Below are positions 33,518-41,199 of a stretch of 41,199 nucleotides of DNA, in pieces (within the stretch, counting starts at the first letter, position 1; each line of letters opens with the position of its first letter). The DNA comes from Candidatus Hydrogenedentota bacterium (GTDB lineage: Bacteria > Hydrogenedentota > Hydrogenedentia > Hydrogenedentales > SLHB01), in assembly GCA_016215105.1 (NCBI GenBank), contig JACRLJ010000130.1, forward strand, positions 1 to 41,199, written 5' to 3'. The translations under genes were made by a program, and so were the position numbers. The notes beneath the pieces were generated by a model. That model was not told the origin of the DNA and ran no database searches. It was given only the letters and a program-made list of their open reading frames with translations.

Positions 33518-34570
33518 ATGCCGCCGCAGAATTCCGCGCCAGATCCATCCAAGGGCCGCATCGCGTCCATGGACCAAGTCCGTGGCTATGCCATATTCGG
33601 GATGCTCCTCGTCGACTACTTCGAGTGTTTCAAGATAACGACTCAGCAATTGCATCATCACACCGAGTATATGACCTTCGCGGATACCATCGCGCCCATG
33701 TTTATGTTCGTGGTGGGGATGGGCATGCGGCTTTCCATGAAACGCCGCATCGAGCACGTTGGCCTGCGCGAAGCGCGCCGCGGCCTGCTCAAGCGCTATG
33801 CGCTTCTGGTCCTAATCGCGTTCACCCTCTACACCGGCTATCTCTGGGACGCGCTTATGAATATCGGTTTGGCCGGACTACTCGCTCTCTGGGTGGTGGA
33901 CAAGAAGCCCGCCACTCGCATCTCGGCGGGTCTTCTCATGTTGGCGGCATACCAAGCTGTCGTTTCCTTTACAAGCTACGGCCCTTGGCTGCACGGAGCG
34001 ATCAAGTACCGTGACGATACCATGCCGATCATCTGGAAGGTCATCCCCTTCGGTCCGGAGTTGGTTAATGCTTCGCTGAACGGAGGTCCCATCGGTCACT
34101 GGAGCTGGCTCTTGATGCTGCTTTGCGGGACTATCGGCTACGACATCCTGGCCACCCAGGACAGGCGCCGGATTGTCCTTCGCTGTCTCGCATGGGGGAT
34201 AGCTCTCTCCGTCGCGGGCTGGGCGCTGCACGCGGCATGGCCCGGTGTCAAAGAGGCGTGGCCGTTCTCCAAGCGTTGGGTGACGGCGCCCTACGCGCTC
34301 TGGTCCTCGGGACTCTGCTTTTTCGTCTTGCTTGCATTCTATCTTGTGTGCGATGTGGGGAAGCTGAGAATTCCCCATCTCACCGTACTGGGGCTGAACC
34401 CACTCTTCATCTACATCCTTCAGTGGTGCATCATGGAATCCGCCGAACGCTTCATCCCGGACAAGACCGCAAACTGGTTCGGTATCATGGGTGGCTTCGC
34501 CGTGTTCTACGCGGTACTATACGGGACGGCGTACGCCATGTACCGCCGAAACATCTTCATCAAATTGTGA
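33518..34570 (+). CDS. Membrane acyltransferase-like protein (DUF5009/HGSNAT-like)
   Basis: 350 residues with about 9-10 TM helices. The N-terminal KGRIASMDQVRGYAIFGMLL is the conserved start of the DUF5009 / heparan-alpha-glucosaminide N-acetyltransferase-like family, which moves acetyl groups across membranes onto sugars; other family marks are MFMFVVGMGMRLSMKRR and the C-terminal LGLNPLFIYILQW. AAAGGAG (33504-33510), 7 bases before ATG 33518, fixes the start; a longer in-frame extension into the lactonase gene is rejected. Its place before a glycan-type propeller-barrel protein suggests sugar or glycan acetylation or transport. The actual substrate is unknown and catalytic residues cannot be assigned by eye. 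Confidence 0.85.
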   Translation: MPPQNSAPDPSKGRIASMDQVRGYAIFGMLLVDYFECFKITTQQLHHHTEYMTFADTIAPMFMFVVGMGMRLSMKRRIEHVGLREARRGLLKRYALLVLIAFTLYTGYLWDALMNIGLAGLLALWVVDKKPATRISAGLLMLAAYQAVVSFTSYGPWLHGAIKYRDDTMPIIWKVIPFGPELVNASLNGGPIGHWSWLLMLLCGTIGYDILATQDRRRIVLRCLAWGIALSVAGWALHAAWPGVKEAWPFSKRWVTAPYALWSSGLCFFVLLAFYLVCDVGKLRIPHLTVLGLNPLFIYILQWCIMESAERFIPDKTANWFGIMGGFAVFYAVLYGTAYAMYRRNIFIKL

Positions 34571-34611
34571 GTCAAGAACTCTCTCGCGCTTTACGTACGG
34601 AGGACTACAGC

Positions 34612-36951
34612 ATGACTCGTTCGAGTGTCTGCCTCATTCTTGCGCTATCGGCATTCGTTAGCGCATATGCGCTGCCCGCGATGGGCGGCCAGTTCAAAGT
34701 GGATCAGAAGTTGTGGAAACCTGTCCCCGACGATGTCTATCTCCAAGAAATAAACGGGAAAGTCGTCTCCGACCAACCCGTGACGTCGCTCGCCCTCTTC
34801 AACGACGCGGCCTATGCGGTGGTCGGTGGCGGCGTTAGCGTGATCCAAGGGGAGAAGCTGCAAGCGGTTCCCGATGCGCCAAAGGATGTGCTCCGTGTGC
34901 AAGTCGTCGGCGGGTCGTTGTGGGCGCTGGCCAAATCCGGGCTCTATCAATTCGCCGATGGCAAGTGGCGGGGCTTCGATTCCCGCGAGTTCGTGGATCT
35001 CTGTGTTCACCAGGGCGCGGTCCACGCCGCCACGCGAGACGACGTCTTCCGGATCGAGAAGGACGCATTGGTAAACATCGAGCCGAAAGGCGGCTACCAG
35101 TCCAACGACTCGACGGTCGTGATGGCGGATGGCACGCAAGTATTGGCCGACCCTGTCCACATCGGCCCTATTTCGCGGCTTGCCTCGTACTGCGGAACGC
35201 TCTACGTCCTGCGTCCGAATGGGCTGGCGCTGCTGGACGGCCGCCGGGTCGTGCCGAATCCCATTGATTGGGGAACGCTTCCATCCCGGCACGTTCAGGC
35301 TATATGTTCGCTCGGAAGCTGCCTGTACATTACCACCGATAAAGGTCTTGCTGTGTTGCGTGGCATGGCCATGACCACCCTGCGTGGCCAAGACGGTCTA
35401 CCCTATGAGGACACCACCTGCGTGACGCCCGGTTTCGACGGGGATCTCTGGATCGGCACGACCCGAGGAGCCATCCGCAAGACGCGGGACGAGTACCAGT
35501 ATCTCGGAGCGCAACACTGGCTGCCCGGTAATAACGTTCACGACATCGCCGTCGGCAAGAACGTGGTCTACGTGGCCACTGATAAGGGCATAGGAGTCAT
35601 TCGCTACGAGCCTTTCACTCTGCAGAAGAAGGCGGATTATTTTGAGAAGAGCCTGAGCGAGTGGGGGATGAAGCGCCTCGGTTTCATCCACATGCTGTAT
35701 TGGTCCGGCGACAAAGACGGCTGGCTACGAGAAATCAGCGATAACGACGGCGGTCACACGGCGCACTACCTCGCCGCGATGTCGTTCAAGTACGCCGCCA
35801 CCGGCGACGAAAAAGCGCGGGAACAGGCCGTAGACGCCTTCAAAGCGATGATCTGGCTCGAAGAAATCACCAAGAACCCCGGATTCATTGCGCGCGCGGT
35901 CTGGGCAAACAACGTTGATAAGGGGCAACGCTCGGAACGCGGCTCCGGCGGACTACCTGCCAAGTGGTACTACACGCCCGACAAACTTTTTGCATTCAAA
36001 GGCGACACCTCAAGTGATGAAGTGGATGGGCACTTCTATTCCGTTTCTATCTTCCACGACCTCGCTGCGAAAGGTCCCGAGAAGGATCGCGCCGCGCAAC
36101 ACCTTGCCCGCATCGCCTCCCACATCATGGACCACGGCTGGGTGCTGCAGGACATGGATGGCAAACCAACCCGCTGGGGCCGATGGGACCCCGAGTACCT
36201 CTTGCGGCCCTACGGCTACATCGCGCGCGGACTCAACGGCATGCAGGCGCAGACCTATATGCGCGCGGCGTACGGCGTTACCGGTGACGCAAAGTACGAG
36301 CAAGGATTTCAGCAACTGGTGAAGTGGGGATACCCCTCGTACACGGTTCGTCAAAAACTCACTTTCCCGCCGGATGAGGTCGTGCCCTCGTACGATGAGC
36401 TGGCGTTCCGCTGCTATTACACGCTTCTGCGCTTTACGGACGCCCCCGAATATCGTTCGATATACTTGCGCAGTATTACGCGGAGTTGGGAAGTCAAACG
36501 CATGGAGCACGTGCCGTGGTTTAACTTCATCTACGGCGCCGCGACCGGCAACGATTGTGAAGTGGACCGCGCCGCGAAGCATCTGCGCGAGTGGTCGCTC
36601 GACTTGAGGAATTGGAGCTACGAGAACTCGTTCCGAAGCGACCTCGCGCCCGAGCCCGGCTACGTGCCCTACCAAGGTGGAACGCGCGCCATGTCGCCGC
36701 GGGAAACCACCGCGAAGGGCGGCAGCCGCTCCGCCCTCGAGTACGATGGAGGCGGTAGTGGCCGTAGTGTTACCCCGCCCATCGGCTGGCTCGAGGACTA
36801 TTGGATGGGCCGCTATCACGGATTCATCGAAGCGCCCAAGACGCAAGATGCCGCGCTGCTAACCGTTGACCACGGCGCCAATCCGCAGCCCGGAGCGAAA
36901 CCGTATGACGGTCCTCCGCGCCCGTCAAATCTCGTCCCAGGTGAGCCGTAG
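34612..36951 (+). CDS. Exported propeller plus alpha/alpha-barrel protein, possible glycan enzyme
   Basis: 779 residues. Signal peptide about 1-25 (SAYALPAMGG). The N-terminal half (about 30-330) is a propeller like two-component-regulator propellers: AAYAVVGGGVSVIQG, SLWALAKSGLYQF, TLYVLRPNGLALL, CLYITTDKGLAVLRG, DLWIGTTRGAIRK, VVYVATDKGIGVIRY. The C-terminal half (about 345-740) is helical with a repeated aromatic, acidic pattern (GGHTAHYLAAMSFKYAATGD, VDGHFYSVSIFHDLA, DPEYLLRPYGYIARGLN, YDELAFRCYYTLLRF) resembling (alpha/alpha)6 glycoside hydrolase or lyase barrels. No catalytic pair can be assigned. GGAGGA 7 bases before ATG 34612. The MFS gene follows 11 bases after its stop. A role in binding and cleaving an uronic-type glycan is plausible but unproven. 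Confidence 0.78.
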   Translation: MTRSSVCLILALSAFVSAYALPAMGGQFKVDQKLWKPVPDDVYLQEINGKVVSDQPVTSLALFNDAAYAVVGGGVSVIQGEKLQAVPDAPKDVLRVQVVGGSLWALAKSGLYQFADGKWRGFDSREFVDLCVHQGAVHAATRDDVFRIEKDALVNIEPKGGYQSNDSTVVMADGTQVLADPVHIGPISRLASYCGTLYVLRPNGLALLDGRRVVPNPIDWGTLPSRHVQAICSLGSCLYITTDKGLAVLRGMAMTTLRGQDGLPYEDTTCVTPGFDGDLWIGTTRGAIRKTRDEYQYLGAQHWLPGNNVHDIAVGKNVVYVATDKGIGVIRYEPFTLQKKADYFEKSLSEWGMKRLGFIHMLYWSGDKDGWLREISDNDGGHTAHYLAAMSFKYAATGDEKAREQAVDAFKAMIWLEEITKNPGFIARAVWANNVDKGQRSERGSGGLPAKWYYTPDKLFAFKGDTSSDEVDGHFYSVSIFHDLAAKGPEKDRAAQHLARIASHIMDHGWVLQDMDGKPTRWGRWDPEYLLRPYGYIARGLNGMQAQTYMRAAYGVTGDAKYEQGFQQLVKWGYPSYTVRQKLTFPPDEVVPSYDELAFRCYYTLLRFTDAPEYRSIYLRSITRSWEVKRMEHVPWFNFIYGAATGNDCEVDRAAKHLREWSLDLRNWSYENSFRSDLAPEPGYVPYQGGTRAMSPRETTAKGGSRSALEYDGGGSGRSVTPPIGWLEDYWMGRYHGFIEAPKTQDAALLTVDHGANPQPGAKPYDGPPRPSNLVPGEP

Positions 36952-40129: not shown

Positions 40130-40771
40130 TCAGTCTACGCCTTCGTTTGCCAGGATCTTTCCCTTATCCGGACTGTACTGGACTGCCCGACCATACTTTT
40201 GCAGACTAGCTTCGAAATTCTGCGCATACAAATGGTCCAAAATATGAACCGTCAGCATCGCAGTCAGCAGACTGTTCAAACCGCGTTTCAAGCGGCAGTC
40301 GAAGAACAGCGCTTTTGAAAGACATTGGGCCGTGCAAACAACCCAGTAACCGAACAGGCCGCTCTTTTCGAAGGCGTCGTGCGAAAGATACTGCTTGATA
40401 AGCCGGTCGAGCGCGTCGATGCGTCCCTTTCGTATCCACAACGGCGGAGCGGAATACGGCCACTTCTCGCGGCGGTAGATCTCGTCCGTAAGATCTTCCC
40501 TGAACGCCTCCCGAAGTACATATTTCTCGACTCCGTCGTGGATCTTGAAGGAATCTGGTATACGACGAACCTGCTCGAACAACTGATGGTCGAGAAAAGG
40601 CGTACGCCCTTCAATCGAATGCGCCATCTCCATGCGATCTCCCAGCATGGTCAAGATATAAGGCGCCAGCATGGACTTGATCCAAAAGTATTGAATCTGC
40701 CGTGCCTCGGGAAGCGCGTCGGTTCGGCTACGGTCGATTCTGCTTTTCAGACAATTGATGACGGGATTGTG
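40130..40771 (-). pseudogene. Asparagine synthase C-terminal part, separated from its middle
   Basis: Reads leftward and contains the asparagine synthase C-terminal half: YFWIKSMLAPYILTMLGDRM, EMAHSIEGRTPFLDHQLFEQ, KIHDGVEKYVLREAFREDL, YRREKWPYSAPPLWIRKGR, ending about 210 residues after the junction. The glutaminase domain and ATP-binding loop are missing from this frame; upstream of about 40771 the frame reads antisense to a second asparagine synthase piece on the plus strand. So the gene is broken here. Family role if intact: ATP-dependent amidation of aspartate or amide transfer to a precursor. The stop is at 40130. It could be a remnant, an invertible arrangement or an assembly error. 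Confidence 0.75.
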
Positions 40772-41199
40772 ACGAAGAAGAGAACGGTGTCTTTTCCCGA
40801 AGAAGAAGCGTTCAACGAGTACCAACTCGCCAAGAATATGGCCGCAAAGATTGGCGCGGAGTTTCACTCGGTCACCTGTGACCCCGAGACACTCATCGAG
40901 AACACCGAAGAATCGCTGTGGGTCTCGGAATTGCCGTTCATCAACTTTCATGGTGTGGGCAAGTTCATCCTGTCGCGTCTGGCGCGGACACAGGTAACCG
41001 TCGTGCTAACCGGAGAGGGCTCCGACGAACTCTTTCTCGGTTACGTCGTGTTTCAGCCGGGAAAAGGCGACGCATCCGATCAGATGATGGATCGGTTGAA
41101 GCCAACAAAGCCCCCGCGGGGCCGCACTGTGCGCAGGACTATCAGGGCATTGGGCTTCCTTCCAATGAGTGAATATGCCATTACGCTCTCCACGAGATA
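40772..41199 (+). pseudogene. Asparagine synthase middle part on the opposite strand, runs off the edge
   Basis: Plus-strand frame open to the right edge, beginning near RTVSFPEEEAFNEYQLAKNM (after about 40781) and continuing AAKIGAEFHSVTCDPETLIE, WVSELPFINFHGVGKFILSR and VVLTGEGSDELFLGYVVFQ, the middle of the asparagine synthase domain just after the SGG-D-S loop. The loop itself and the N-terminal glutaminase are absent to its left; the sequence there is unrelated to the family in this frame. Together with the leftward C-terminal piece this is the layout left by inverting the middle segment of a leftward gene. No stop in the window. Confidence 0.75.

Follow-up and report, generated by a model that had tools for sequence, protein, structure and literature searches.

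The asparagine-synthase-type gene whose opposite-strand pieces lie at one end of the window (the entire 41,199 bp of contig C88, from a draft genome of 171 contigs) is probably an ordinary and intact gene of about 660 codons that was split across contig ends in assembly, one part being joined in the wrong orientation. The order of the gene is the end of a second contig, C78, then window positions 40784-41199, then window positions 40783-40133 on the minus strand. The features of the locus are as follows.

40130-40783, minus strand: C-terminal piece of the asparagine-synthase-type gene; matches PF00733 and TIGR01536, with 52-57% identity to four orthologues.
40784-41199, plus strand: middle piece, spanning the region immediately behind the PP loop up to and including GEGSDELF; matches PF00733 and TIGR01536, is flipped, and reaches the contig end.
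40783-40784, no strand: inverted junction of both pieces, from direct reading and alignment to intact orthologues.
40784-40804, no strand: candidate shared inverted sequence, suggested by a profile test on random peptides rather than seen directly.
41199, no strand: contig end; ~40-43 bp of the gene due between 41199 and 40783 (minus strand) are absent from both contigs.

The preliminary description had reported an asparagine synthase gene in two pieces on opposite strands, and both lie where it placed them; its approximate breakpoint, 40771/40781, falls within a few bases of the actual 40783/40784. The C-terminal piece (coding part 40133-40783, minus strand; stop codon 40130-40132) matches profile positions 199-319 of PF00733 (101 bits; 40352-40729, minus strand) and positions 429-517 of TIGR01536 (E=3e-20). 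The flipped middle piece, 416 bp at the tip of C88, matches profile positions 49-143 of PF00733 (71 bits; 40784-41068, plus strand) and positions 284-378 of TIGR01536 (E=1e-17). Given these TIGR01536 E-values and 52-64% identity to four orthologues in common, the assignment of the pieces is far beyond chance. Direct reading and alignment to intact orthologues reveal neither Ns nor foreign sequence at 40783/40784. Elsewhere in the window, an open frame of 960 codons (34069-36951, plus strand) has no Pfam match at E <= 0.001.

It had also been proposed that only the middle of a leftward gene was flipped, and that the N-terminal glutaminase and PP-loop part should lie on the minus strand beyond 41199. 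That part was found in the same bin at the very end of C78 (22,315 bp), whose last base falls inside the gene and runs exactly into window position 40784. Specifically, i) the end of C78 encodes a class II glutaminase domain starting MCGIVGSVGH (Met-Cys-Gly; PF13537, E=1.5e-43), the PP loop SGGIDSS, and sequence ending in RLKVF; ii) the in-frame continuation from C78 into the window reads RLKVF followed by TVSFPEEEAFNEY, with ACG at 40784 as the next codon and zero residues missing, and the residues on either side of this join are directly adjacent in the four orthologues (same family or order); iii) a PF00733 search of the genome returned several copies on other contigs, five of which span most or all of the domain, unlike three partial matches that fit together, namely C78:22175-22315 (profile 2-48), the window plus strand (49-143), and the window minus strand (199-319); and iv) all three pieces share as best matches the same four orthologues, each a contiguous gene, the C78 piece being 57-64% identical to them. 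The exact complementarity of the partial matches and their common best orthologues rule out pieces from different paralogues. Wider searches across the order and phylum found no closer orthologues, and a fifth orthologue lacks the relevant part of the gene; no conserved neighbors were found around the orthologues, leaving synteny neutral on the link between C78 and C88.

The best NCBIfam match is TIGR01536, whose curated cut-off is exceeded by the N-terminal piece alone (282.6 vs 267.1 bits), and the score for TIGR03108 (XrtA/PEP-CTERM amidotransferase) is far under its own cut-off. By this family match the gene is of asparagine-synthase type, and asparagine would be its putative product; relatives involved in exopolysaccharide or peptide modification make another amide. 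The Asn_synthase domain extends over the three pieces (profile 2-48, 49-143, and about 199-319) with a gap of ~14 residues relative to the orthologues: the middle piece ends in LSTR followed by TA, the C-terminal piece starts SLLRHNPV, and 14 further residues lie between them in 4 of 4 orthologues. The reading frame demands one extra base plus whole codons, consistent with this gap, and we conclude from the gap and the agreeing frame that both contigs lack ~40-43 bp of the gene. Searching the bin with 500 bp of sequence from across the junction gave no second copy.

A misjoin could have arisen if the gene carried a short inverted repeat, one copy opening the middle piece and the other immediately preceding the C-terminal piece (~20 bp each, perhaps as long as ~40); the assembly would have taken the wrong path out of the repeat, included a single copy in place of two, and halted near where the second was due. 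Within the contig, only imperfect inverted pairs of 13-19 nt at chance level were found near the junctions, and no long inverted repeats bound the flipped piece in the assembled sequence. The minus-strand frame of the C-terminal piece stays open past 40783, giving FFGKRHR before SLLRHNPV. When the peptide ending in FFGKRHR is taken as the missing linker, it scores 11 bits above random peptides with the four-orthologue profile, a value reached by 3 of 6000 such peptides (p about 5e-4), and true linkers gain 11-20 bits in the same comparison by leave-one-out. Only the ~7 residues closest to the junction (about 21 bp) contribute to this fit; the fit weakens to p about 0.02 with a profile of all 36 homologues, and the resemblance, in a weakly conserved region, had been spotted by eye before being tested. 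Read on the plus strand, the same 40784-40804 interval fits the start of the middle piece at 9 SD above random. That one interval fits both the start of the middle piece (plus strand) and the end of the missing linker (minus strand) suggests that the gene contains a short inverted repeat, and on the simplest reading of these fits the gene would hold two copies of ~20 bp, inverted relative to each other, of which the assembly has one. A perfect repeat of 39-42 bp is ruled out, the distal half of the minus-strand reading adding nothing (p=0.34) and only ~20 bp being supported. Similarity to the PP-loop region leftward of 40784 (plus strand), seen by BLAST, is a chance match (p=0.13), and there is no DNA match to the end of C78. 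No convincing equivalent of the repeat was found in the orthologues.

Several observations favor a misjoin. A flip at a contig end, with one repeat copy lost and the partner contig ending at the edge of the repeat, is what mis-resolution of an inverted repeat would leave; the flip is no more than 416 bp from the contig end, and another contig carries its partner at the very tip; the three partial matches complement each other exactly and their common best orthologues are all contiguous genes; 40784-40804 fits the gene on both strands; the draft is fragmented and of short-read type; and neither C88 nor C78 carries a recombinase of the two main families (no match to PF00589 or PF00239 on either contig; elsewhere the genome has six PF00589 matches on other contigs and zero for PF00239). 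Frames are open in all three pieces, with no further decay seen, and the family to which the gene belongs is an ordinary biosynthetic one. The draft also shows contig ends that have 138-141 bp in common, and N gaps of 3-90 bp, some with unmerged duplicates on their flanks. At G000 contig ends, for example C5 left, C9 right, and C41 left, the same 11-21 bp stand on both sides of scaffold N gaps, and these flanks look like overlapping contigs placed side by side without being merged. Of the three readings offered in the preliminary description, a chimeric assembly at a contig end is the best fit and the most likely. Read as a misjoin, the flip implies no biological function.

Other observations argue against a misjoin: reads of ~150 bp, if such were used, should cross a repeat of 20-40 bp; C78 halts exactly one base short of the middle piece without overlap, a stop that a simple repeat tangle would not lead one to expect; the join contains no Ns; and the shared repeat comes from a weakly conserved linker, where its fit is weaker with 36 homologues. 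Nor does the flip look like a systematic fault of the assembly, since none was seen at the 162 other ends sampled in a coding-strand survey of 163 contig ends, a survey of low sensitivity (an earlier strand-profile survey of contig ends was too noisy for use). Two other ends flagged as flips were ruled out, both reading as ordinary convergent gene pairs.

The strongest rival, which we consider unlikely, is a real inversion allele in part of the population, in which recombination or template switching at a short inverted repeat has reversed an intragenic piece of ~416-460 bp, and intact and broken alleles coexist so that the assembly breaks at the fork. C78 stops a single base short of the middle piece, the end of C88 is at most a few tens of bases from the other breakpoint, and neither end keeps a k-mer overlap; by de Bruijn graph logic such ends are expected at a fork of two coexisting orientations, and they differ from the other ends of the draft that retain overlaps of 138-141 bp. 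The lack of Ns at the junction is also in keeping with a real inversion, and the gene may be dispensable, one related genome having a large internal in-frame deletion in it. On the other hand, long inverted repeats, a recombinase on either contig, and an equivalent repeat in orthologues are all missing, and the loss of ~40 bp at one junction is not that of a conservative inversion. The orthologue in that related genome (L237:5859-6749, on G009:C118) is an open frame of 297 aa that joins the first ~93 residues of the gene in frame to its C-terminal part, the PP loop and the entire middle being absent; either this internal deletion is genuine or the assembly collapsed here too.

Improbable, in our estimate, is a library artefact in which the assembler followed molecules, formed by fold-back or as PCR chimeras, that linked the C-terminal piece with the beginning of the middle piece: a single fold-back at a short shared sequence would yield the identical order of pieces, but a single chimeric junction should extend C78 about one k-mer into the middle piece, and C78 stops just before it. 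We are similarly doubtful of a reversible intragenic inversion at short inverted repeats, switching an asparagine-synthase-type amidotransferase between intact and broken in an uncultured bacterium; the anatomy of the locus does not support the invertible switch entertained in the preliminary description, since neither long inverted repeats on the flanks nor a recombinase on C78 or C88 were found and one junction lacks ~40 bp. More remote still is a fixed inversion, which would make the gene a pseudogene that has lost ~40 bp and carries its middle piece in reverse, the contigs breaking at the second junction for an unrelated cause. This takes the assembled order at face value, but does not explain why the assembler stopped precisely at the second junction, across which C78 would be expected to continue into C88, and sits poorly with three pieces that are all open in frame and otherwise undecayed. 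A mobile-element scar, also suggested beforehand, is ruled out, since no mobile-element or other foreign sequence lies at any junction and gene sequence reaches the last codon at both contig ends.

We wish to caution that opposite-strand gene pieces near a contig end, with the remainder at the extreme end of a different contig, can represent a join error at a short inverted repeat. Invertons often lie near surface-structure genes (PMC11892184); if the inversion here were real, it would be an intragenic inverton at a different kind of site, within an enzyme of biosynthetic type.

Compared with known systems, the gene agrees with asparagine synthase (glutamine-hydrolysing), TIGR01536 with GATase_7 (PF13537) and Asn_synthase (PF00733), in that all three pieces match in order and the domain order, the PP loop SGGIDSS, and the length are those of the orthologues; the gene itself shows no differences, and only the assembled order and the ~40 bp gap deviate. 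A site-specific recombinase commonly adjoins an intragenic inverton, but is not required. As far as intragenic invertons are represented by the citation of Chanin et al. (2024, Nature 634:234) in PMC11868660, the likeness would be an invertible segment within one gene; the differences are that here the assembled sequence has no repeat pair, a pair of ~20 bp being suggested by the linker fit, that neither contig has a recombinase, and that bases are missing at one junction. Apart from the failure of C78 to overlap the repeat, the locus resembles a mis-resolved repeat in short-read drafts in its flip at a contig end, its partner at another contig tip, the apparent loss of one repeat copy, and the fragmentation and N gaps of the draft.
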